A stretch of DNA of 11,869 nt from a bacterium (lineage in GTDB: Bacteria; AUK180), in NCBI GenBank assembly GCA_030622125.1, contig JAUXGM010000066.1, forward strand, positions 1 to 11,869, in the 5' to 3' direction. Positions 269 to 11,641 of this stretch are shown here, piece after piece. How positions within the stretch are numbered: position 1 is the stretch's first letter; every line of letters begins with the position of its first letter. A program made the position numbers and the translations under genes. The notes under the pieces were generated by a model. That model ran no database searches, was not told the origin of the DNA, and saw nothing but the letters and a program-made list of their open reading frames with translations.

Positions 269-309
269 CAAAAAAAGAGGTTAGAGGTTAGTGAAAAACA
301 ATATTAAAT

Positions 310-358
310 TCCGTTCCAAACAAAAGAGGGACATTACCTCATCAAACGGATTTTTTTT
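310..358 (+). terminator. Candidate intrinsic terminator inside the repeat
   Basis: An outer stem TCCGTT (310-315) pairs with AACGGA (345-350) and is followed at once by eight T residues (351-358). An inner stem GAGG (326-329) pairs with CCTC (337-340) across a 7-nt loop. This fits a rho-independent terminator for the gene ending at 252. The inner stem belongs to the dispersed B block, and the outer stem and T tract are not conserved in the right-hand copy, so terminator use would be local. Confidence 0.45.
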
Positions 359-360
359 GT

Positions 361-490
361 TGAGATGTGTCCCGGATTCTTCCTTAGATAACGATAAACC
401 ACCCGAGAACAATATAGCCAAGGAAATAGAATGAGATGTGTCCCGGACTTTTCCTTAGATAACGATAGACCATCCGAGAACGATATTACC
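361..490 (+). repeat. Two tandem A units, 71-bp period
   Basis: Unit 1 begins at 361 and unit 2 at 432. Both carry TGAGATGTGTCCCGGA, CCTTAGATAACGATA and CCGAGAAC, and about 52 of 59 aligned positions are identical. A second tandem pair with a 72-bp period lies inverted at 5463-5587. The shared core in one member of each pair, reading TCGTTATCTAAGGAAGAATC in the right-hand orientation, is identical. Confidence 0.75.
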
Positions 491-505
491 GGTTCGATAG
501 GAAGA

Positions 506-607
506 AATTCCTGGATACTTCGGCTAAAGCCTCAGTATGACGGGAAAAAGTGTAATTCAGAGCACTTTACTTTGTTCAGCACAGGCTTTGTGAAGAATCC
601 ATCTTTA
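506..607. repeat. Degenerate TGTCATTCTGAG-type repeats, copies D2 and D3
   Basis: D2 (about 506-541) reads TTCCTGGATACTTCGGCT then CCTCAGTATGAC, the reverse orientation of the TGTCATTCTGAG family. D3 (551-607) reads TGTAATTCAGAGCACTTTAC then TTCAGCACAGGCTTTG and TGAAGAATCCATCTTTA, a decayed forward copy. They fill the space just before the CPBP protease gene, and D3 ends only 11 nt before that start codon. This may explain why no promoter or Shine-Dalgarno is visible there. Confidence 0.5.
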
Positions 608-618
608 GACCTTGGAAT

Positions 619-1329
619 ATGAGATTATTACGGGGTAAACCCCCTCATAATGACTTCGTCATTTTTGTAAGTGTTTTACTTGCACTTTTGGCGGGTATTT
701 CTATATTTATTGGTCTTAAAATAATATCGAGTATTACGATTACTTTGATCATATATTATGGTTTTATATGTGTTTTCATACCCGTATTCGATCTTCTTGT
801 TATTAAAAGATACAATATTAAAAAATCTCTGGATTTTTTAGGGTTGAAAAATTTTAAAAGGTCTCTCTTACCTGGAATGATCATCGGTATAGTTTTACTT
901 TTCAGTATACTCGTATTCTTTTTTGTGTTCCATAAATTTATCATTGATGGTGGTAAAATAAACATATTACTCGGTAATTGGGGATTGGATAAAAAATACA
1001 TGATCGAATTTTTGTTTTTTATGATAGTAATGAATTCAATTGTGGAAGAAATATGGTGGCGCGGATATATATTTCAAAGATTTTTAAATTCAATGTCAAA
1101 AATTTCTGCTGTTCTTATTACATCAGTTTTTTTTAGTATCCATCACTTTATTACCACTACAAATATATTCTCATTGACTTACGGATTCCTTTTCACATTC
1201 TTGATATTCCTTTCCGGAATATTTTGGGCTTTTATTCGGATCAAATTTAGATCACTTTATCCTAATATAATAAGTCATATGTTGTCCGATCTCGCCATAA
1301 TGGTCGTGTATCTGAAATTTGTAAATTAA
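619..1329 (+). CDS. CPBP-family intramembrane metalloprotease (CAAX prenyl protease 2/Abi-like)
   Basis: A 236-aa polytopic membrane protein with the CPBP (PF02517) signature. Motif 1 is EExxxR at E143-E144-R148 (NSIVEEIWWRGYIF). Motif 2 is FxxxH around F171-H175 (SVFFSIHHF). The last motif is HxxxD at H220-D224 (NIISHMLSDL). The Glu and His residues are the predicted metal-binding and catalytic set. Hydrophobic segments lie near residues 12-34, 36-62, 83-106, 127-142, 160-178, 184-207 and 216-234. Bacterial members include Abi-type proteins and proteases of unknown substrate, so the substrate cannot be inferred. The ATG at 619 has no evident Shine-Dalgarno (CTTGGAAT precedes it), and no other in-frame start keeps the first helix. 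Both flanks are dispersed repeats. The coding DNA is AT-rich, like the next gene. Confidence 0.85.
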   Translation: MRLLRGKPPHNDFVIFVSVLLALLAGISIFIGLKIISSITITLIIYYGFICVFIPVFDLLVIKRYNIKKSLDFLGLKNFKRSLLPGMIIGIVLLFSILVFFFVFHKFIIDGGKINILLGNWGLDKKYMIEFLFFMIVMNSIVEEIWWRGYIFQRFLNSMSKISAVLITSVFFSIHHFITTTNIFSLTYGFLFTFLIFLSGIFWAFIRIKFRSLYPNIISHMLSDLAIMVVYLKFVN

Positions 1330-1397
1330 GGAATACGGGAATAAGGGAAATGCAGAGGATAGAGGCTCGAGGTTAGAGGTTAGTGAAGAGAAAACAA
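1330..1397 (+). repeat. Repeat patch: heptamer-like F block plus C block
   Basis: Just after the CPBP stop codon, GGAATACGGGAATAAGGGAA (an F-type block, the reverse of CCTTATTCCC) is followed by AGAGGATAGAGGCTCGAGG and then TTAGAGGTTAGTGAAGAGAA. The C part has a 7-bp periodicity (GAGGTTA/GAGGATA). It aligns, inverted, with 5671-5718, sharing the reverse of TTGTTTTCTCTTCACTA. No terminator hairpin is seen after the protease gene. Confidence 0.6.
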
Positions 1398-1423
1398 GAG
1401 AAAAAGGAAATAAAGAAAAAAAT

Positions 1424-1452
1424 TTGATATTTGATAAAAAAAATGATATAAT
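1424..1452 (+). promoter_or_regulatory. Strong sigma70 promoter with extended -10, for the 1481 gene
   Basis: The -35 box is TTGATA (1424-1429), the spacer is 17 bp, and the -10 box is a perfect TATAAT (1447-1452) preceded by TGA, an extended -10. A second TTGATA lies at 1431-1436 but its spacing is too short. The start of transcription is expected near 1459, giving a leader of about 22 nt. Confidence 0.7.
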
Positions 1453-1480
1453 ATAAAATAATGTAATAAAAAAAGGGGAG

Positions 1481-3190
1481 ATGAGAAAAAGATCCGTATT
1501 TTACTTATTAGGTGTATTGGTTTTCTGTGCTTTTATATATAGCTTTAGAATAAAAGCAATAGTTGACATCAATATAAATTGGATATTTATTATTATTACA
1601 TGCATGATGTATATTGTGGTGGGAGCATTGCAATTTCCGGTTGGTAAGGGTATAAATCTTTCTTTAATATCTTTTTTCATGGTAGTTGCTATCTTTTCAT
1701 TTGGTAATTTTTATACATTTATTTTAATTATGCCGACAACATTTATCTATAAAAAACTACACTTTTTAATATACCAGAAAAGATCGGGAAAAAAGATGGA
1801 AAATTCTACTCTCGATAGTTTAAATACCACGATCATAAGAATTATTGATATTGGTTTTTATTGCCTTATGATCTATGTTCTTCATCTAAAATTTGATTTT
1901 AATTTTAGTGTAAATGAAATAATAAATATAAATTTATTGGCACTTTTTGTTTCTATTTTCAATATTTTCGCTTTTTTTCTTAAAGAAAATCAAATTCGGT
2001 TTAAAAATTTATATCGCGCCTGGCTTAGTTCATTAATAGCTTGGGTACTTCTTTCTAATATGGCTTATATAGTACTTCATTTTTATCAAAGGCGGATATA
2101 TTTTCCGATCCTAACAGTATTTTTGATGATATTGATAACTAATTATTTTATCTTTGTTATTACTGAAAAAAATTATGCTCTTCATACTATGAAAAAAAAT
2201 CAGACGATTTTGAGTAGTATTAAAGATATAAGTATAAAAACAAAAAACAGCAATGATTTTTTCAATACTATAAATCATTATTTGGTAGTTAGAAAAATAA
2301 CCGATCTTTTTCTATTACTAAAGGAAGACGATACAGGTTTATCAATTGTTTATAACTCTACTGGAATAGACATTAAAAATAATATAAAACTCTTCAATGG
2401 GAAATTGGTAGGACTTAAGAATCTTTTGGTAAAATTAAAATATATAAAATCTCAAGTTATTAAATTGGATTTCAAAAATGAGCATTGTTTTTTCATTTAT
2501 ATAATGAGCGATGAAGTAAAACAGCAAAATATTGATTATCTTAATTTAACAAGAAATATATTGGCGGTATATGAAAATATATCATTAAAAGAAGAATTGC
2601 GAAAAAGTAATAATAAACTGCAAACAATAAATGATAAGTTCATAAAACAAAATACAATGGTTGAAAACTTTGTTGATCTTTTTGATAATAATGTAAAGAA
2701 TACATTAACCACCATTTATGGGAAATTTAATTTTATTATAAAAGGAAATATGGGACAGGTTAATAAAGAAATAAGGGAATCTTTGGGAAATATTGCAAAA
2801 AAAATAGATGCATTACTTCTCACGATAGAGATACTTAAAAATTTTATTAAGGGTAATGAAGTTCAAATAAGGTTTACTCATTTCCCCATTGAAAAAATTA
2901 TCACAGAGCTTTGTATTAATAAAAATATTGATTGTGAATATAAAAAAGGAACAAAATGGTTTACAGATCACGAAAAACTTCTTTTTGTTTTGCGCTACAT
3001 AATTTCAAATATTCAAAAAGCCGGAGGGAAGATTTCAAAAATAACCTTTCAAAATAAAATTATTACGATTAAGAATAACTTATATAATAATTTGGAAGTT
3101 TGCTCTGACAACAAGAACATAGAATGTATAATTACAAATGCAATCCTCTCTGCCCCGGGAAAAAATTTTGAGATTGTGCTTAGCTATTGA
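1481..3190 (+). CDS. Membrane sensor protein with degenerate histidine-kinase module (pseudo-kinase candidate)
   Basis: The 569-aa protein has an N-terminal membrane half (hydrophobic segments near residues 7-21, 32-53, 58-90, 116-136, 149-167, 180-200 and 206-227). A mixed alpha/beta, possibly GAF-like region follows (about 240-362), then a charged helix likely to be coiled coil (about 362-392). The next part resembles a DHp helix: VDLFDNNVKNTLTTIYGKF (398-416) lines up with the H-box pattern SHELRxPLTxIxG, but the phospho-acceptor His position is N403 and the Pro position is T408. A remnant of the ATPase domain follows: TDHEKLLFVLRYIISNIQKA (495-514) resembles the N-box with N510 kept, but no DxGxG or GxGxG glycine box follows and the domain is cut short. 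I infer a signalling protein that cannot phosphorylate itself in the usual way. GGGGAG directly abuts the ATG with no spacer; no better in-frame start exists. Coding DNA is strikingly AT-rich (two sampled lines are about 17-25% GC). Confidence 0.7.
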   Translation: MRKRSVFYLLGVLVFCAFIYSFRIKAIVDININWIFIIITCMMYIVVGALQFPVGKGINLSLISFFMVVAIFSFGNFYTFILIMPTTFIYKKLHFLIYQKRSGKKMENSTLDSLNTTIIRIIDIGFYCLMIYVLHLKFDFNFSVNEIININLLALFVSIFNIFAFFLKENQIRFKNLYRAWLSSLIAWVLLSNMAYIVLHFYQRRIYFPILTVFLMILITNYFIFVITEKNYALHTMKKNQTILSSIKDISIKTKNSNDFFNTINHYLVVRKITDLFLLLKEDDTGLSIVYNSTGIDIKNNIKLFNGKLVGLKNLLVKLKYIKSQVIKLDFKNEHCFFIYIMSDEVKQQNIDYLNLTRNILAVYENISLKEELRKSNNKLQTINDKFIKQNTMVENFVDLFDNNVKNTLTTIYGKFNFIIKGNMGQVNKEIRESLGNIAKKIDALLLTIEILKNFIKGNEVQIRFTHFPIEKIITELCINKNIDCEYKKGTKWFTDHEKLLFVLRYIISNIQKAGGKISKITFQNKIITIKNNLYNNLEVCSDNKNIECIITNAILSAPGKNFEIVLSY

Positions 3191-3202
3191 TAGGTAAGTA
3201 AA

Positions 3203-3288
3203 CGGAGAGGGCGGGATTCGAACCCGCGTGCCTTTGCAGACAAGACGATTTCGAGTCGCCCCCGTTACAACCACTTCGGTACCTCTCC
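3203..3288 (-). tRNA. tRNA-Ser(CGA)
   Basis: The minus strand folds as a class II tRNA. The acceptor GGAGAGG/CCTCTCC is followed by discriminator G, as usual for serine. The anticodon loop is CTCGAAA, with anticodon CGA at 3251-3253 reading UCG. A long variable arm has stem TGTCT/AGGCA, and the T arm is GCGGG-TTCGAAT-CCCGC. CCA is not encoded, so a CCA-adding enzyme is needed. Its 3' end lies 12 nt from the stop codon of the converging gene at 3190, with no obvious terminator between them. Confidence 0.93.
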
Positions 3289-3292
3289 AAAA

Positions 3293-3366
3293 TACGCCTA
3301 AGGAGATTTGAACTCCTGACCTTTGGAACCGCAATCCAACGCTCTATCCAGCTGAGCTATAGGCGC
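3293..3366 (-). tRNA. tRNA-Arg with anticodon GCG
   Basis: A complete cloverleaf is visible on the minus strand. The acceptor is GCGCCTA/TAGGCGT with a G1-U72 wobble and discriminator A. The D stem is GCTC/GAGC with GGA in the loop (A20), the anticodon stem is TTGGA/TCCAA around loop TTGCGGT, and the T arm is AGGAG-TTCAAAT-CTCCT. After U33 the anticodon is G34-C35-G36 (3330-3332), which reads CGC/CGU. A20 and C35 are known arginine identity elements. Most bacteria use A34 (anticodon ACG, deaminated to inosine by TadA), so G34 is unusual. CCA is not encoded. tRNA-Ser follows 4 nt downstream, so the two are probably co-transcribed. Confidence 0.9.
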
Positions 3367-3376
3367 ATAAAAATAT

Positions 3377-3405
3377 ATTTAAACAAATTTTTGCTTTTTT
3401 TTCAA
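3377..3405 (-). promoter_or_regulatory. Possible promoter for the tRNA-Arg/tRNA-Ser pair
   Basis: Read on the minus strand, TTGAAA (3400-3405) is followed by a 17-bp spacer and TTAAAT (3377-3382), which is preceded by TGT (an extended -10 form). Transcription would begin near 3370, 4 nt before the tRNA-Arg 5' end. The surrounding DNA is almost pure A/T, so chance matches are likely. Read-through from glgP, whose stop codon lies 57 nt upstream of the tRNA, is the alternative. Confidence 0.35.
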
Positions 3406-3423
3406 ATTTTATTTTACAAAAAA

Positions 3424-5154
3424 CTAATCAAAGTATGCGGAAAGGACATACTGATAAACCATTCTATGCGTGCTGAAAAATGAACCGTTAAATCCAATTG
3501 TGTTCTGCATTATTTTTAACCATTCTTTCCTTTTTTCATAGTATGTTGGAATGATCTTTGTTTCCAGTTTTGAGTACAGGGTTTCTAATTCCTCTGTTTC
3601 TTCTATTTTTATATTCTTATATATCATTTCTCTTTCACCGATTGACCAACCCGTTACATCCTCAACATGTCCTTCAAGCCACCAACCATCAAGTATACTT
3701 AGATTTGGAACACCGTTTACACTCGCTTTCATTCCACTTGTGCCCGATGCCTCCTTTGGCGGTTGTGGATTATTAAGCCATATATCTACACCGGGAATGA
3801 GTAATTGAGCAGTTGGAATATCATAATTTTCAAGATAAATTACATTGATAGTTTCACTTAACTCCTTCATTGTTTTTCTTATCTTCCTAATAATTTTCTT
3901 CCCTTCCGTATCGTTTGGATGAGCTTTTCCAGCAAAAATAACCTGTATAGGTCCGACACTTTCTACGATCTTTTTGATTCGTTCAATATCGGTAAAAAAC
4001 ATATATGGTCTTTTGTAGGCAGTAATCCGTCTTGCAAAACCTATTGTAAATGAATCCGGATTGAAATTAACTCCGTACTCTTCCTTTATATGCTCAAACA
4101 ATCTTTTTTTATTTTCACAATGAGCATTCCATATCTCGTCCGGTGGAATACTGAACACACTTCTCAATGTATAGGGATCGTTCCGCCATCCTTTCAAATA
4201 TTTATCAAAAAGATCCTGAGTTGCCGGAGAAGTCCAAAAAGCAGAGTGAATACCATTTGTAATAGAACTTATATTATAACCGGGAAACATCTCTCGTGAT
4301 ACCTCCGAATGTTTCTTTGCAACGCCATTTACATACTTGCTGCTATTTAAAGCAAGAAGGGTCAAATTAAGATTATCATTTTCACAGATCGCATCAATTT
4401 CATTTTGTGTGAGATATCCTCTTAAAAATTTTTCCACAAGTTCTTTTTTGAATTTATCATGACCGGCAGGAACAGGAGTATGAGTGGTAAATACACATCT
4501 ATTATGCACTCTTTTTTCAATTGCATCATTGAACATATCCCAATTTGATTGTCCTACAAGGTCTTTTCTTAGTTCAAGGGTTAAAAGGGCGGAGTGACCT
4601 TCGTTCATATGATATTTTTCAATATCATAGTAACCTAATTTCTTTAACATTCTATAGCCACCAATTCCAAGAATGATCTCCTGTAAAAACCTATAACATT
4701 TATCACCTCCGTAAAGACAATCCGTTATGTGTCTATCCTCTTCATCATTTTCAATAATATTAGTATCCAAAAGAAATATTGGAACTATATGTCCCGTAAC
4801 ACCTTTTAGGTCATATTTCCATGCCTTGATATAGATCACTTTTTCCGCAACTTTGACAGTTACCCTTTCTCTTAATTCGGTAAAATATTTATTCCTATCC
4901 CAAACATAAGGCTGTTCTATCTGATTATCATCATCATCAAATTTTTGAATAAAATAGCCTTTATTTGAAACAAGAGTTACACCGAGGATCGGTACTTCAA
5001 GATCTGCACAGGATCTAAGAGTATCTCCGGCAAGAACGCCCAAACCACCGCTATAGGTTGGGATTTCTCCATGAAATCCTATTTCCATACTAAAATATGC
5101 CACTCTTATCTCATCTTTATTGCTAATTCTAAATTTTTCTACTGCATTCTCCAT
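3424..5154 (-). CDS. glgP: Alpha-glucan (glycogen/maltodextrin) phosphorylase, short GT35 form
   Basis: The 576-aa protein is a GT35 phosphorylase of the short type (TIGR02094-like), without the long N-terminus of E. coli GlgP/MalP. It releases glucose-1-phosphate from alpha-1,4-glucans with phosphate and pyridoxal phosphate in the cytosol. Visible motifs are RVAYFSMEIG (17-26), SGGLGVLAGD (35-44), HMNEGHSALL (182-191), FTTHTPVPAGHDKF (222-235), GFARRITAYKRP (372-383, phosphate-site R375/R376/K381) and EASGTSGMKA (468-477), where K476 should carry PLP. The start is well supported: GAGG (5162-5165) lies 7 nt before the ATG, with a promoter just upstream. It is the first gene of its transcript; the tRNA pair lies 57 nt downstream on the same strand. 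No other glycogen gene is in view, so whether the substrate is stored glycogen or imported dextrin is open. Confidence 0.93.
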   Translation of the reverse strand: MENAVEKFRISNKDEIRVAYFSMEIGFHGEIPTYSGGLGVLAGDTLRSCADLEVPILGVTLVSNKGYFIQKFDDDDNQIEQPYVWDRNKYFTELRERVTVKVAEKVIYIKAWKYDLKGVTGHIVPIFLLDTNIIENDEEDRHITDCLYGGDKCYRFLQEIILGIGGYRMLKKLGYYDIEKYHMNEGHSALLTLELRKDLVGQSNWDMFNDAIEKRVHNRCVFTTHTPVPAGHDKFKKELVEKFLRGYLTQNEIDAICENDNLNLTLLALNSSKYVNGVAKKHSEVSREMFPGYNISSITNGIHSAFWTSPATQDLFDKYLKGWRNDPYTLRSVFSIPPDEIWNAHCENKKRLFEHIKEEYGVNFNPDSFTIGFARRITAYKRPYMFFTDIERIKKIVESVGPIQVIFAGKAHPNDTEGKKIIRKIRKTMKELSETINVIYLENYDIPTAQLLIPGVDIWLNNPQPPKEASGTSGMKASVNGVPNLSILDGWWLEGHVEDVTGWSIGEREMIYKNIKIEETEELETLYSKLETKIIPTYYEKRKEWLKIMQNTIGFNGSFFSTHRMVYQYVLSAYFD

Positions 5155-5174
5155 ATTACAACCTCATTTACTTC

Positions 5175-5203
5175 ATTATATTAAAATATTCATATTTTTG
5201 CAA
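5175..5203 (-). promoter_or_regulatory. Sigma70 promoter of glgP
   Basis: On the minus strand, TTGCAA (5198-5203), a 17-bp spacer and a perfect TATAAT (5175-5180) lie 20 bp before the ATG. The predicted start near 5168 leaves a leader of only about 13 nt, just enough for the GAGG ribosome-binding site. Confidence 0.65.
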
Positions 5204-5219
5204 GAGAATAGTTTTTTTT

Positions 5220-5304
5220 GTTTTCGGAGTATTATCTTCTGAACCTTTGAAATGGATCCGGGACACAGTCTTGGGACACACGATGCAAGCAACGTATGTC
5301 CCGC
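5220..5304. repeat. Partial A unit and GGGACA/TGTCCC palindrome
   Basis: This starts the 0.55-kb gene-free stretch between glgP and citF. TTTTCGGAGTATTATCTT (5221-5238) resembles the stretch after block B2 (5398 on). ATCCGGGACACAGTCTTG (5255-5272) matches an A-unit end at 5498-5515. GGGACACACG (5273-5282) and CGTATGTCCC (5293-5302) form a 10-bp inverted repeat with one mismatch and a 10-nt loop. Confidence 0.55.
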
Positions 5305-5336
5305 TTGTTTTCTGAATTTGTATTTGTCTTTTTTTT

Positions 5337-5370
5337 CATTGTCCATTGTCCATTGTCCATTGTCAATTGT
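5337..5370 (+). repeat. Heptamer tandem array (GTCCATT)n
   Basis: Three perfect GTCCATT units (5341-5361) are followed by a variant GTCAATT (5362-5368), and the array is preceded by a partial unit. Heptamer arrays of this kind are known as short tandemly repeated repetitive (STRR) sequences in cyanobacteria and, from memory, also occur in other phyla. Confidence 0.75.
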
Positions 5371-5376
5371 ATTCGG

Positions 5377-5460
5377 TAATGTCCCTCTTTTATGGCTTTT
5401 CGGAGTTTTATATTATTTTACTTATTGCCTTATTCCCTTATTTCCTTATTGCCTTGTTTA
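5377..5460 (+). repeat. Block B2 followed by CCTTATT-type heptamers
   Basis: TAATGTCCCTCTTTT opens the block. After a variable stretch, TATTATTTTACTTATTGCC and then TTATTCCCTTA follow. The same series occurs at 5611-5671 and, in part and inverted, at 302-336. The final part (5421-5455) is a loose tandem run of CCTTATT/CTTATTG units of 7-8 bp. Confidence 0.65.
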
Positions 5461-5462
5461 TA

Positions 5463-5718
5463 CTGTTCTCGGGAGATATATCGTTATCTAAGGAAGAATC
5501 CGGGACACAGTCTTATTCTATTTTCTTGGTTATATCGTTTTCGGGAAGTATATTGTTATTTAGGGAAGAGTCCGGGACACATCTCAACTTTAAAAATCAG
5601 AAAGTTGAGGTATGTCCCTCTTTTGTGGGGGTGCGGAATTTAATATTATTTTACTTATTGCCTTATTCCCTTGTTTTCTCTTCACTATCCTCCAACCTCT
5701 ATCCTCTAACCTCTGTAT
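5463..5718 (-). repeat. Right copy of the composite element (inverted: A-A-B-F-C)
   Basis: Inverted A units occupy 5463-5514 and 5530-5587 (72-bp period, each with CTAAGGAAGA/TTAGGGAAGA then TCCGGGACACA). Then come the palindromic A/B junction, block B3 (5609-5650), the heptamer-like F block (5655-5672) and block C (5671-5718, TTGTTTTCTCTTCACTA then CTCTATCCTCTAACCTCTG). Order and orientation mirror 277-490. The element ends 4 nt before the citF stop codon. No gene is seen in 5155-5722: the open frames there run through repeats and lack recognisable domains. Confidence 0.7.
5574..5618. repeat. Long palindrome at the A/B junction
   Basis: Arms GGGACACATCTCAACTTT (5574-5591) and AAAGTTGAGGTATGTCCC (5601-5618) pair over 18 bp with one mismatch and one G-U pair around a 9-nt loop. 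The inner 9 bp (CTCAACTTT/AAAGTTGAG) are perfect. The matching place in the left element (328-373) keeps the outer arms with a different, longer loop. It has no T tract fitting a terminator in either direction. Confidence 0.8.
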
Positions 5719-5722
5719 TTTC

Positions 5723-7285
5723 CTATTTCTCAACCACCTGTTTTATCGTATCTATGATCGTACCGTCACGGTATTCAATAAAGCCACAAATCTTATCTGT
5801 AAATTCAAACATCTTGGGATTGTTTGTGATAATTTCAACCTTTTCTCTTAATTGGTGAATATCTTTTATGGGAAGACCTTTTCCTTTAAGATTTTCCATC
5901 AGATCCTTCCTTCTTGGATTTATTGCTATTCCTCTTTCCGTAACAAGTATATCCACGGTTTCTCCCGGTGTAATAACAGTATTTACTTTATTTACAACCG
6001 TTGGGATCCTTGAGCGAAATGATGGAGCAACTATTATGGTAAGTTTCGCAGTAGCCGCAGTATCGGAATGCCCGCCCGATGCTCCCTGTGCATAGCCGTG
6101 AGAATCAACTAATACATTTACATTAAAGTCGGTATCAATCTCATAAGCAGCAAGAACAACAACATCAAGGTTATTTATTATTGCTCCACTGTTAAATGGG
6201 TTTGCATAAAAATCAGCATTTATCTCAATATGATCATCATTTTCAAGAAGGGATGAAACCACACCCTTATCAAAGCTCTGGACATCAAACATCTTTTTAA
6301 AAAGTCCTCTTTTATAGATATCAACGATATAACTTGAAATACCACCGATAGCATAAGAACCGATAACTTTTTTTTCCTCCATTATATCTGCAAGATACTT
6401 TGCTGTGGCAAGCGATGCACCGCCGGCACCTGTTTGAAAAGACATTCCCTCTCTGAAATAGCCGGAATTATAGATAACATTGGCAGCATTCTCTGCAATA
6501 ACAAGATCAACAGGGTTGTTTGTGAGTCGTGTGGAGTCGCTTCCAATCTTATCAGGATCACCCAATCTATCAATTTTAACAACATAATCTACTTGATATT
6601 GGGGGATTGAGATCGGTGTATTTGGATAATCAACAAGATTATCGGTTACGGCAATAACACAATTCGCATATTGAGCATCGACCATTGCATATCCAAGTGA
6701 ACCGCAAGCGGAAGGACCTCTTACTCCGTTGAGATTACCCTCTTTATCGGATGAAGGGGCACTGATAAATGCAACATCAATCTTGACCTCACCTGTCTTT
6801 ATTGCCCTTGCTCTTCCACCATGAGACCTGATTACAACCGGAATATCCATTTTGCCACGGCTGACAAATTTTCCTAATTCACCACGAAGTCCGGAAGTAA
6901 ATATTTTTTTGACAACACCTTTTTCAACATATTCATATAGATTTTGATGTGCCCTTGTTAAAGAACTTGAAAAGATGGTAAGATCTTTAAAGCCCATTTT
7001 ATCAAGTGTTTCCACGACCTTCATTAGTAAAAAATCACCACCTCTAAGATGATGATGAAATGAGATCGTATCACCGTTTTTCAAACCGGATCTTTCTATT
7101 GCCTTTTCAAGAGAACTTACGAGTTTATTTCTTTCTGGAAGATATGTTCTGATCTTAGTGGGCGTCAATCTTAAATCCTCTTTTTGTAGATTCTTTATTC
7201 TTTTAAAAGCTCCCTTATAGGGGATTAACTTACCTAAATTCTCAACATATTCGGGTATGTCTATGCCTAATTGATTTTTCATCAT
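5723..7285 (-). CDS. citF: Citrate lyase alpha subunit (citrate:acetyl-ACP transferase)
   Basis: The 520-aa protein matches CitF in length and motifs. CitF swaps the acetyl group on the CitD thiol for citrate, making citryl-ACP and acetate. Landmarks are SFHHHLRGGDFLLMKV (75-90), SHGGRARAIKTGEV (154-167), GVRGPSACGSLGYAMVDAQY (187-206), QTGAGGASLATAKYLA (284-299), DSHGYAQGASGGHSDTAATA (394-413) and TERGIAINPRR (449-459), all consistent with the family and its CoA-transferase-like fold. It is the last gene of the operon, 6 nt after citE. AGGAG lies 4 nt before the first ATG and 7 nt before a second ATG in tandem (7280-7282), so translation may start at Met2. The stop codon abuts the dispersed repeats; no terminator is visible. 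Confidence 0.95.
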   Translation of the reverse strand: MMKNQLGIDIPEYVENLGKLIPYKGAFKRIKNLQKEDLRLTPTKIRTYLPERNKLVSSLEKAIERSGLKNGDTISFHHHLRGGDFLLMKVVETLDKMGFKDLTIFSSSLTRAHQNLYEYVEKGVVKKIFTSGLRGELGKFVSRGKMDIPVVIRSHGGRARAIKTGEVKIDVAFISAPSSDKEGNLNGVRGPSACGSLGYAMVDAQYANCVIAVTDNLVDYPNTPISIPQYQVDYVVKIDRLGDPDKIGSDSTRLTNNPVDLVIAENAANVIYNSGYFREGMSFQTGAGGASLATAKYLADIMEEKKVIGSYAIGGISSYIVDIYKRGLFKKMFDVQSFDKGVVSSLLENDDHIEINADFYANPFNSGAIINNLDVVVLAAYEIDTDFNVNVLVDSHGYAQGASGGHSDTAATAKLTIIVAPSFRSRIPTVVNKVNTVITPGETVDILVTERGIAINPRRKDLMENLKGKGLPIKDIHQLREKVEIITNNPKMFEFTDKICGFIEYRDGTIIDTIKQVVEK

Positions 7286-7291
7286 TATCTC

Positions 7292-8167
7292 CTATTTTCC
7301 TAATTTAGAAATAGTAATGATCTTTTCAGCTCTTTTAACAACGGGCGGATCGATCATTTTTCCTCTTAAAGCAATAACTCCTTTTCCTTCTTTTAATCCC
7401 TTATCATAAGTCTCAATAACCTCCTGTGCCCATAATATTTCTTTTTCGGTCGGCGTAAAAATTTTATGGATCGGTTCAATTTGCCTTGGGTTGATCACTG
7501 CTTTTCCCGTAAAACCCAATTTTTTTATTAGCCTTGTTTCTTCAATCAGTCCATTTTTATCGTTGATATCTGCAAATATTGTATCAACTGCATCAATTCT
7601 TGCCGCTTTTGCCGCCATAACGATCCTTGATCTTGCCCAGAGGATCTCTTCACCTGATTTTGTCTTTGCAATACCCATATCCGCCGTTAGATCCTGTCCA
7701 CCAATAGTAATTGCATTAACCCTTACAGAAGATGTAGCGATTGAAAAAGCATTCTCAACACCGAGTGCGGTTTCTATCATAGGATGGATATTTATTGTTC
7801 CAATTGCAATTTCGTTCTCTTTTTCATATTTTCCTATCAATTTTGCAAGTTTATCTACATCTTCAGCTCTATTTGTTTTGGGCAGCCTTATTGCCTGTAA
7901 CTTCTTTGCTGCTATGATTTCTTTTACATCATCCTCAAAATACGGTGTATTTAATGGATTTACTCTAACGGTAATTTCAATGTTCTCATAAGCACGATAT
8001 TTTATCATATTTGAAACAAGATCCCTTGCAGAATCTTTTTCGGAATGTGGAACGGAATCTTCAAGATCAAATAAGACCGAATCTGCTCCGAAGATATCGG
8101 CAATTTGCAACATACCGGGGTTATTACCAGGAATATAAAGCATAGTTCTTCTAAGTCTAATTTCCAT
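7292..8167 (-). CDS. citE: Citrate lyase beta subunit (citryl-ACP lyase)
   Basis: The 291-aa protein is CitE, of the HpcH/HpaI aldolase superfamily. It cleaves citryl-ACP to oxaloacetate and acetyl-ACP. Motifs are LRRTMLYIPGNNPGML (5-20), ADSVLFDLEDSVP (28-40), VRVN with R68, the Mg-binding pair E132 (MIETALG) and D159 (GGQDLTADMG), and the C-terminal GKAVINPRQI (221-230). Length agrees with the family (about 290 aa). The first 11 nt of the gene overlap the end of citD, and GAGGAG inside citD serves as ribosome-binding site, so translation is likely coupled. Stand-alone CitE-like proteins can have other roles (malyl-CoA or citramalyl-CoA lyases), but tight linkage to citD and citF makes the lyase subunit call firm. 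Confidence 0.95.
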   Translation of the reverse strand: MEIRLRRTMLYIPGNNPGMLQIADIFGADSVLFDLEDSVPHSEKDSARDLVSNMIKYRAYENIEITVRVNPLNTPYFEDDVKEIIAAKKLQAIRLPKTNRAEDVDKLAKLIGKYEKENEIAIGTINIHPMIETALGVENAFSIATSSVRVNAITIGGQDLTADMGIAKTKSGEEILWARSRIVMAAKAARIDAVDTIFADINDKNGLIEETRLIKKLGFTGKAVINPRQIEPIHKIFTPTEKEILWAQEVIETYDKGLKEGKGVIALRGKMIDPPVVKRAEKIITISKLGK

Positions 8168-8426
8168 TTTTAGCTCCTCTCAATAACGCTGTCTTTAACC
8201 TTGCTTTAATAGTTAGGTTCATTGCCCCATTATCCTGGATCTTCACATAAACCCCGTTAATTTTTCTCATTTCTAATTCGTTTAAGATCAATGACCTTAT
8301 TTCCTCGGTATGTTGGGAACTGACAGAAGATTCAACTTCGATCTTTATTTCATTAAACGGTTCAACATAAACCATCAAATCACTTGATTCGAGGCTACCA
8401 GCTTGTGACTTTTTATTGATTTCCAT
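8157..8426 (-). CDS. citD: Citrate lyase gamma subunit (acyl carrier protein)
   Basis: The 89-aa protein is CitD, the carrier of the phosphoribosyl-dephospho-CoA prosthetic group. The diagnostic AGSLESSDLMV stretch (9-19) contains S14, equivalent to the modified serine (Ser14 in Klebsiella), and the C-terminal DNGAMNLTIKARLKTALLRG (64-83) is typical. It sits 27 nt after icd, with GAGGAA about 9 nt before the ATG, and overlaps citE. The carrier is useless without prosthetic-group synthesis (CitG), attachment (CitX) and acetylation (CitC). None of these is in the window, so they must lie elsewhere if the enzyme is active. Confidence 0.93.
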   Translation of the reverse strand: MEINKKSQAGSLESSDLMVYVEPFNEIKIEVESSVSSQHTEEIRSLILNELEMRKINGVYVKIQDNGAMNLTIKARLKTALLRGAKNGN

Positions 8427-8453
8427 AGATATAAATTCCTCTGTTCCAAATTC

Positions 8454-9704
8454 TTACTTTGTTTTTATATTTTCAATAATTTTATCGGCAAATTCGGAGC
8501 ACTTTACTTCTGTTGCTCCTTCCATTAATCTGGCAAAATCATAAGTTACGGTCTTATTTAAAATCGTTGCTTCAAATGCATTCTCAATAATTCTCCCAAC
8601 CTCTTTCCATCCCAGATGTTTAAGCATTAAGACAGATGACATAAGAATTGAACCGGGATTTACCTTGTCCTGCCCTGCATGCTTAGGTGCGGTTCCGTGA
8701 GTGGCTTCAAACAATGATATACCTGTTAAATAATTGATGTTACCACCTGGTGCTATACCAATTCCGCCAACCTCAGCCGCCATTGCATCCGAAGCATAAT
8801 CTCCGTTTAAATTCATTGTAGCAATAACATCGTATTCTGCCGGTCTTGTAAGAATTTGTTGTAAAAAGGCGTCAGCAATTACATCTTTGATAATTATTTC
8901 ATGTCCATTCTTTGGATTAATTATCTTCTGCCATGGTCCGGCATCAATTGTAGTACCGCTAAATTCCTCTTTTGCAACTTCGTACCCCCACTTTCTAAAT
9001 GCTCCTTCGGTAAATTTCATTATATTTCCTTTGTGGACAAGTGTAACTGATTTTCTGTTATTTTCAATGGCGTATTGAATTGCTGCCCTTACCAATCTTT
9101 TAGAACCGTCCTCAGAGATAGGTTTAATTCCAATACCGGAATCCTCTTTTATATCAATATCAAATTCGTCTTTTATGAATTTAATCATTTTCAATGCTTC
9201 ATCGCTACCATCTTTCCACTCTATACCGGCATAAACATCCTCAGTGTTTTCCCTGAAAACTACCATATCAACAAGTTCCGGATGTTTAACAGGGGATGGA
9301 ACACCCTTAAACCATCTTACCGGTCTTAGACATACATAGAGATCAAGTACTTGTCTTAATGTAACATTCAAACTTCTGAATCCACCACCAACCGGAGTAG
9401 TCAACGGTCCTTTTATTGAGACTTTATATTCTTTAATTGCCTCAATTGTTTCATTGGGAAGATATTCATTATAAATTTTATTTGCTTTTTCTCCCGCATA
9501 TATTTCCATCCATTCTATTTTTTTTTCACCGTCATAAGCTTTTTCTACGGCGGCATCCACTATTTTTATCATAGCCGGTGTTATATCCGTTCCAATACCA
9601 TCACCTTCTATAAAAGGTATAATGGGGTTGTTCGGCACATTTATTTTACCATTTTCAAAGATAATTTTTTTACCATTTTCGGGTATTTTATACTTGTATT
9701 CCAT
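8454..9704 (-). CDS. icd: Isocitrate dehydrogenase, NADP-type, homodimeric
   Basis: The 416-aa protein closely follows E. coli Icd (offset 3 residues). It interconverts isocitrate and 2-oxoglutarate plus CO2. Substrate-site motif RSLNVTLRQ (110-118) includes S111, equivalent to the Ser113 regulated by AceK in E. coli. Also present are [11 protein letters not shown] (121-131), [12 protein letters not shown] (152-163), [14 protein letters not shown] (223-236), [15 protein letters not shown] (300-314) and [19 protein letters not shown] (334-352). Coenzyme residues K341, V348, Y388 and R392 match the NADP set K344/V351/Y391/R395; Y345 of E. coli is replaced by H342. NADP use is therefore likely but not proven. 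It starts 2 nt after the acn stop codon, and its AAAGGAGA site lies inside the end of acn, so the two are translationally coupled. The pairing with citrate lyase allows a reductive role. Confidence 0.95.
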
Positions 9705-9706
9705 AA

Positions 9707-11641
9707 TTATTCTCCTTTATTATGTTTTTTTACAAATTGAAGTTTTCCACCCTCTTTCAGTATTGCTACTTGATTTGTTGTGAGGGTATGGATAAGCTCA
9801 TATTCCTTGCCTTTTGTCAGATTTTTCATCTTTATGGGCTGCTCATTAAGGTTAGCAACATCTATCTCAAGTCCGTCATCTTGATCAATGGTATCATAGT
9901 CGGCTTTATTTTTAAATTCAAGCGGAACTATACCGAAATTGATAAGATTTGCAAGATGAATTCTTGAAAAAGATTTTACAACAACCGCTTTAATGCCGAG
10001 GTATGACGGTGCAATTGCAGCGTGTTCTCTTGAAGAACCCTGACCATAGTTTTCTCCGCCAACAATAAATCCGCCTTTCTTTTCCATTGCTCTATCATAA
10101 AATTTTTCATCAAGCACCCTGAATACAAATTTTGATATTTCCGGAATATTTGATCTGAACGGAAGTATCTGAGCACCAGCAGGCATAATATGATCTGTTG
10201 TAATATCATCACCTACTTTTATTAATACTTCACCGACAAGTTTATCGGACAAAGCATCTTTTAATGGTAACGGTTTGATATTCGGTCCTTTTACAATTTT
10301 AACTTTTTGTGCCTCTTCAATCGGTAACGGTGGAATGATCATTGAATCATCTATAATGAATTTCTTCGGTAATTTGACCTTGAACGGCTTTATGCCCAAT
10401 TTTCTCGGATCAGTTAGTTTTCCAGTAAGCATACATGCTGCGGCAACCTCGGGAGATGTCAGATAAACACTCGCAGATTTTGTTCCGCATCTGCCTAAAA
10501 AATTTCTATTGAATGTTCGGACAGATATCTCATCACTACCGGGTGCAAATCCCATTCCAATACAGGGACCGCAAGCAGATTCAAGTATTCTAACACCCGC
10601 TTTAACAAATGATTTGATCCAGCCTTCTTCTGAAAGTTGCGCTAATATTTGTCTTGAACCGGGTAATAATCCCGCACTGATATGGACAGCAACCTTTTTG
10701 CCTTCAAGCATCTTTGCTACTGTTACAATGTCAGAATAAGAAGAGTTGGTACAGGAGCCTACAATAACTTGATCAACCGTTTGCCCTTCGACTTCGGAGA
10801 TCGGGGCAATATTACCGGGTGAATGAGGTTTTGCGACCATCGGTTCTATCTTGGACAGATCAACATCAACTGTTTCATCATAAGAAGCTTCGGAATCGGC
10901 ACCCAGGTTTATCCAATCTTTTTCTCTTCCCTGCTTTTTTAAATATTCAAGTGTGATCTTATCAGATGGGAAAATAGATGTAGTAAGTCCCATCTCCGTT
11001 CCCATATTGGTAATTGTTGCTCTTTGCGGAACATTAAGCGTTTTTAATCCTTCGCCGGTATATTCAAATACCTTGCCCCTGCCTCCTTTTACACCATATT
11101 TACTTAAAAGATAAAGTGCAACATCCTTTGCACCGACAAAGGGTTGTAACTTACCCGTAAGATGAATATTGACAATCTCCGGCATCTTAATGGAATAGGG
11201 TTGACCCGCCATTGCAAGAGTAACATCTAAACCACCGGCACCAATTGCGATCATTCCCATTCCTCCACCTGTCGGTGTATGGGAATCGGAACCGATCAAT
11301 GTTTTTCCCGGCACATCAAATCGTTCCAAATTTACCTGATGGCATATTCCGTTTCCGGGTCTGGAATAGTAAATGCCATACTTTTTAGCAATACTTCTCA
11401 GATACTTGTGGTCATCTTGATTCTTGAAATCAGCTTGAAGCATATTGTGATCCGCATAACTTGTGGCTCTCTCCGCTTTCACTCTGTTCAAACCAAGAGT
11501 TTCAAATTCAAGATACGCCATTGTACCGGTTGCATCCTGTGTTAAAGTGTGATCAATTTTAATAGAGATCGGTTTTCCAACCTCCATTTCACCTTTAACA
11601 AGATGGGTTTTTAAAATCTTTCTTGTAAGATTATTACCCAT
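9707..11641 (-). CDS. acn: Aconitate hydratase (short, Aquifex-type aconitase)
   Basis: The 644-aa aconitase matches the short type (TIGR01342-like, about 640-660 aa) rather than AcnA or AcnB of E. coli (about 890 and 865 aa). It interconverts citrate and isocitrate through cis-aconitate with a [4Fe-4S] cluster. Cluster ligands are C297 ([12 protein letters not shown]) and C357/C360 ([11 protein letters not shown]). Active-site motifs include [14 protein letters not shown] (117-130) and the swivel-domain [20 protein letters not shown] (528-547) with S537/R538. [10 protein letters not shown] (482-491) opens the swivel domain. AGGAGG lies 5 nt before the ATG, a very strong site. It is the first gene of the acn-icd-citDEF operon, expressed from the 11696-11723 promoter. 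The exposed cluster fits an anaerobic lifestyle. Confidence 0.95.

Follow-up and report, generated by a model that had tools for sequence, protein, structure and literature searches.

The two repeat copies that face each other in an 11,869-nt stretch of bacterial DNA (the window; contig C152 of G000, a draft genome of 2.08 Mb in 192 contigs) are probably independent members of a lineage-specific, intergenic repeat mosaic that a TIRYT-type transposase has probably spread in trans, their inverted layout being coincidental. An earlier note on the window had described blocks in the order C-B-A-A on one side of a 5-kb gene block and A-A-B-C in inverse orientation on the other. This order is present, and copy 1 and copy 2 are alignable throughout: the local alignment of 295-481 (+) with 5652-5465 (-) scored 202, compared to a maximum of 32 among 300 shuffles. 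The repeat arms are 80-89% identical across 60-100 bp, and the longest exact tract common to both copies is 31 bp. Self-comparison of the window also reproduced the A-unit periods of 71 and 72 bp. Copy 2 exceeds the extent first given to it and runs from ~5255 to 5720, with a further hairpin module (5273-5302), a CATTGTC array (5337-5370) and a truncated second B block (~5379-5454). Moreover, a third, partial copy, consisting of the C block, lies at 1339-1431, within the supposed 5-kb unit. The features are as follows.

270-291, plus strand: C block of copy 1, a run of GAGGTTA heptamers at the left edge, like the microsatellite that precedes many arrays.
295-327, plus strand: B block of copy 1, AAAACAATATTAAATTCCG...AAAAGA, seen in the pair alignment and in column conservation from ~72 nt before the first A unit.
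328-373, plus strand: hairpin of copy 1, in which GGGACAT...GTGTCCC feet enclose a stem-loop that varies; the consensus fold shows compensatory pairing.
366-490, plus strand: two tandem A units of copy 1, 71-bp period, TGTGTCCCGGAYTCTTCCTTAGATAACGATA...
1339-1431, plus strand: third, partial copy, C/microsatellite block, 81% identical over 93 nt.
5255-5320, minus strand: second hairpin module (hairpin proper 5273-5302), AAAACAAGCGGGACAT...GTGTCCCAAGACTG.
5337-5370, no strand: CATTGTC heptamer array.
5379-5454, minus strand: truncated second B block with a run of the octamer AATAAGGG.
5463-5581, minus strand: two tandem A units of copy 2, 72-bp period.
5574-5618, minus strand: hairpin of copy 2, with a different stem in which AACTTT pairs with AAAGTT.
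5619-5720, minus strand: B and C blocks of copy 2, ending just ahead of the citF stop codon (5723).

The window copies belong to an abundant family, as the last of three options in the earlier note had envisaged. BLASTN with copy 1 returned 60 matches genome-wide, while pattern searches allowing up to 3 mismatches revealed at least 140 copies of the A-unit core in the whole draft (none with the reversed pattern as control) and 97 genome-wide copies of the second hairpin module. At least 86 arrays are present in the 2.08-Mb draft. Within the fetched stretches we mapped 82 arrays that together hold 115 A units, 80 of them situated between predicted genes and 43 no further than 400 bp from a contig end; the repeat counts are lower bounds because the arrays evidently break the assembly at contig ends. 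Orientation and spacing were sampled on contigs already known to bear copies, so that densities are biased, and the count of 140 is independent of this sample. The chance of finding two or more arrays in an 11.9-kb window is 9%. Adjacent arrays less than 6 kb apart on the same contig form eight inverted pairs (including the window pair, 5.0 kb apart) versus four direct ones, and random placement of 86 arrays predicts at most ~19 such pairs, ~9 of them inverted, an upper bound because contig breaks are ignored. We also considered the direction of arrays relative to genes as a cause of the inverted pair and rejected it: the upstream gene points towards the array in 37 cases versus 24, a weak tilt that is not significant.

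These numbers bear on the proposal that RecA or a recombinase flips the segment 490-5463 and thereby alters expression of the enclosed genes. The arms are indeed inverted and have 31 identical bases in common, but inverted pairs at such spacing are about as frequent as random placement predicts, and the arms are just 80-89% identical over 60-100 bp. Many other copies contain the A-unit core too, so that recombination would not be confined to the window pair. Furthermore, the block uses both strands for its genes and contains a further partial copy. We consider an inversion switch extremely improbable.

Nor does the gene content single out the segment. It comprises a gene for a CPBP-type protease, a 569-aa ORF, tRNA-Ser, tRNA-Arg and the glycogen phosphorylase gene glgP, the two tRNAs being the sole Rfam matches; no transposase or integrase was found within the 5-kb block, in agreement with the first description. 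The 569-aa ORF (window 1481-3190), previously called a pseudo-kinase, is sensor-kinase-like by architecture only and has no match in Pfam or NCBIfam; the N-terminal half of its product is hydrophobic. The idea of an insertion, with the repeats as the borders of a composite transposon or island, could draw on the gene order, which is not common to relatives, glgP and the CPBP gene lying on separate contigs in three same-family genomes. Yet the content (CPBP protease, tRNAs, glycogen phosphorylase) is ordinary, integrase and transposase are absent, a partial repeat copy lies inside and most arrays are solitary between unrelated genes, all of which makes an insertion highly improbable. A conserved 5-kb block was not seen in relatives. 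The block is nothing special and its boundaries do not mark a unit; the inverted arrangement around the CPBP gene, the membrane ORF, the two tRNAs and glgP is a coincidence. Beyond copy 2, at window positions 5723-11641, the genes for three citrate lyase subunits (alpha, beta and acyl-carrier) adjoin those for isocitrate dehydrogenase and aconitase, and all share one orientation. In a related genus, a AATGGACAATTGACAATGGACAATT heptamer satellite of the same kind as that at window 5337-5370 lies upstream of glgP (L075 3310-3345; G004 C6).

The building blocks of each array are a microsatellite edge, a B block and a hairpin on constant GGGACAT/GTGTCCC feet, together with between one and six 71-bp A units in tandem. 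When arrays were aligned on the first A unit, conservation extended from about -72 to about +64, and inverted outer ends were not found. The conserved order is AAAACAATATTAAANTCCG, a short variable stretch, AAAAGA, the hairpin GGGACAT(N)ACCTCA...TGAGRTGTGTCCC, GGAYTCTTCMTTAGATAACGATA and the remaining A unit; outside this core, GAGGTTA heptamers or AATAAGGG octamers form runs that differ in length. As the outer ends vary with these microsatellites, a target duplication is not definable. The hairpin middle occurs in several variants (ATCAAACTGATTTTTTTTGTTG, AACTTTCTGATTTTTAAAGTTG, AACTTTGGATATTTTAAAGTTG and a longer one, 71 nt including the feet), and in the second module feet of this kind, GCGGGACAT...GTGTCCCAAGACTG, enclose other middles. 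Modules also combine with each other: one array carries a complete hairpin nested inside another hairpin, and in hybrid pieces half of a hairpin is fused to a different module. The hairpin consensus folds with 17 pairs, of which three loop-proximal ones swap from U-A to A-U with pairing kept in 5 of the 12 distinct sequences. Relative to shuffled sequences, the fold of the copy-2 hairpin is clearly stable (z = -4.98), whereas copy 1 gives a weaker signal (z = -1.93) and no stable fold is seen for the A unit alone (z = +1.17).

Folding with compensatory changes would also be expected if the repeats acted in RNA, as 3'-end hairpins that stabilise or terminate transcripts. The first A unit lies at a median of 169 bp from the upstream neighbour, and same-direction gene contexts are (+,+) in 12 cases versus (-,-) in 4, both of which are in line with such a role. 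On the other hand, divergent contexts are also common (9 of 39), the repeat matches no Rfam family, and the 235-bp element was not matched in any of 59 other genomes, among them four from the same family, which argues against a core role. We judge an RNA function as the reason for the repeat to be unlikely; a by-effect of the arrays on transcripts is possible, and the weak tilt in array orientation noted above (37 vs 24) could hint at a role in transcription.

Any mobility would act in trans according to the earlier note, and a candidate source resides elsewhere in the genome. G000 contains four genes of 280-299 aa with a Y1 transposase domain (PF01797) over cut-off, all of which also score, though below cut-off, against the NCBIfam model for REP-associated tyrosine transposases. 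Signs of a C-terminal helix-turn-helix accompany the domain: HTH_23 is over cut-off in one gene (2.8e-6), the gene on contig C172 has a Bac_DnaA_C match under cut-off (2e-5), and the signals are weaker in the remaining Y1 genes. Each gene is bracketed by inverted repeats that contain GGGAC and are perfect or near-perfect; compared to the GGGGWSAS consensus, GGGGACGG (three genes) and AGGGACAC (one gene) have one mismatch each. The C172 gene (L064) has the ends TTAGGGACACACCTCGC and TTAGGGACGCCCCTCGC. Y1 genes of related genomes are bracketed in the same manner, mostly by GGGAC-type ends where a 14/14 inverted repeat was found. By comparison, none of 85 non-transposase control genes has a 14/14 inverted repeat, the sole 14/14 controls being three of the same Y1 genes. 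The other three Y1 genes of G000 (L061, L062 and L063 on C73, C140 and C141) have perfect GGGGACGGTGGT inverted repeats and lie between unrelated housekeeping genes; single GGGGACGGTGGT copies occur elsewhere too, at L085 2193 and 11676. A fifth region of G000, C122:4733-5218 (L183), matches the C172 transposase weakly, at 24% identity (E 1e-7).

The ends of the C172 gene resemble the feet of the arrays. A weight matrix built from the array feet scored them at 22.7 and 19.5, compared to 6.6 for the ends of the other Y1 genes, and we rejected the three GGGGACGGTGGT-ended genes as partners of the arrays on this ground. Of the 304 GGGAC sites that lie in 467 kb once arrays are masked, five score highest: both C172 ends, two leftover array pieces and one coding site. 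The coding site, C172:2735, was considered as a further transposase-linked foot and discarded, as it is part of the coding sequence of a neighbouring gene. The C172 gene itself has an array as a neighbour, a few kb away. The likeness covers just ~12 nt, the foot common to the arrays and the C172 ends, and the A unit has no counterpart at the transposase gene. Mobility in trans, as proposed by the earlier note, has thus gained a candidate, the C172 transposase, with ends that match hairpin feet elsewhere in the genome.

Could the repeats nevertheless be classical MITEs that a DDE transposase mobilises, GGGACA/TGTCCC being their terminal inverted repeats? The element is short, non-coding, abundant and endowed with an inverted repeat, as such a family should be. 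Against this, the conserved span (about -72 to about +64 relative to the first A unit) lacks the outer terminal inverted repeats of MITEs, no target duplication can be defined, and the feet match the ends of a resident Y1 gene. We therefore regard a DDE-driven MITE family as improbable. From the label "abundant MITE-like element" given to the repeat at the outset, the abundance and a candidate trans-acting transposase with matching ends can be retained, and the strict MITE definition cannot; a BIME or REPIN array is the closer likeness.

Spread in trans by the C172 transposase, our preferred reading, finds its nearest description in the TIRYT/TIRtron set (PMC3733652). Di Nocera et al. (2013) described TIRYT genes flanked by GGGGWSAS repeats and families of TIRs dispersed in dimers or clusters (PMC3733652), and Quentin et al. 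equated this set with subclass 2.1, in whose vicinity they found no REP-like sequences (PMC6006769), a point against our reading. Here as there, a Y1 transposase has inverted repeats starting with GGGGAC or GGGAC, and related repeat copies are dispersed as hairpins and clusters; the C-terminal helix-turn-helix of TIRYTs is matched here by the signs described above. The Y1 genes probably belong to TnpA-REP subclass 2.1. Unlike TIRtrons, the dispersed elements of G000 also have microsatellite edges, a B block and 71-bp A units in tandem, and just ~12 nt of them recur in the transposase ends.

Other known systems are similar in part. A RAYT gene lies between inverted REPs of a kind that is plentiful throughout its genome (Nunvar et al. 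2010, PMC2817692), and REPINs are hairpin doublets in which compensatory changes occur (Bertels and Rainey 2011, PMC3116915). As in REPINs and RAYTs, the elements described here combine conserved inverted ends with a variable middle whose pairing is kept by compensatory changes, are abundant, intergenic and lineage-specific, and accompany a transposase flanked by the same inverted sequence (here over ~12 nt). By contrast, the GTAG/GTRG/CGTC tag outside the stem of REPs is absent here, the GGGACAT/GTGTCCC feet being themselves paired, and the transposases appear to be of the longer type that carries an HTH, near whose genes REP-like sequences were not detected (PMC6006769). With BIMEs (described in PMC2817692) the arrays share the mosaic of hairpin modules, tandem growth and hybrid forms, whereas A units run head to tail in one orientation and not as alternating palindromes.

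Relatives offer a view on the age of the parts. An orthologue of the C172 transposase with 66% identity and perfect TTAGGGACACACCTCGC ends on both sides is present in G002, a member of another genus (C235; L170 / L182), and the locus is the same in both, with a GTPase-like gene on one side and a short ORF on the other. In the 66 kb of G002 that were examined no array-type hairpin was found, and the foot pattern occurs at about control level in the 59 other genomes. Since G002 has the transposase and its ends and lacks arrays, the transposase alone is not sufficient for their formation. Judged from these sequences, transposase and ends appear older than the dispersed arrays, and the arrays appear to have expanded in the G000 lineage or to have been lost in that of G002. 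Apart from this, G002 has ~210-bp direct repeats with GTTTCAATTCAGGGACTTTTGTCCCG and TTAGGGACATTACCTTA at the end of contig C60 (L181 1640-2061).

On the basis of the shared feet, we hypothesize that the C172 transposase binds single-stranded GGGACAYACCTC feet, a step for which the proposed recognition of REPs by RAYTs (PMC2817692, PMC3116915) would be a precedent, and that it may move or remodel hairpin modules in trans. Loss of the gene between its two ends could yield a miniature resembling the 27-nt hairpin GGGACACACCTCTGCGAGGAATGTCCC that is present on contig C8. A units and microsatellites might then grow by slippage or by recombination/unequal exchange. The feet alone do not explain the spread of the A unit, because it has neither a stable fold nor a counterpart at the transposase gene. 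With slightly less than even confidence, we propose that a long, HTH-bearing TIRYT from a subclass without a reported REP-like partner, conserved in position across two genera, has in one of the lineages generated a very abundant mosaic repeat, in which hairpins nest within each other and have the TIRs of this transposase as feet.

The claim of a bracketed 5-kb block can be dropped, and the finding framed in that way is ordinary. For the genome itself, the arrays help account for the 192 contigs of the draft, as about half of the mapped arrays lie at contig ends. For the wider family, the repeats provide a further test system for the co-evolution of domesticated Y1 transposases and short hairpin repeats, the value of which lies in the presence of the same gene at the same place in two genera and the amplification of the repeat in just one genome.
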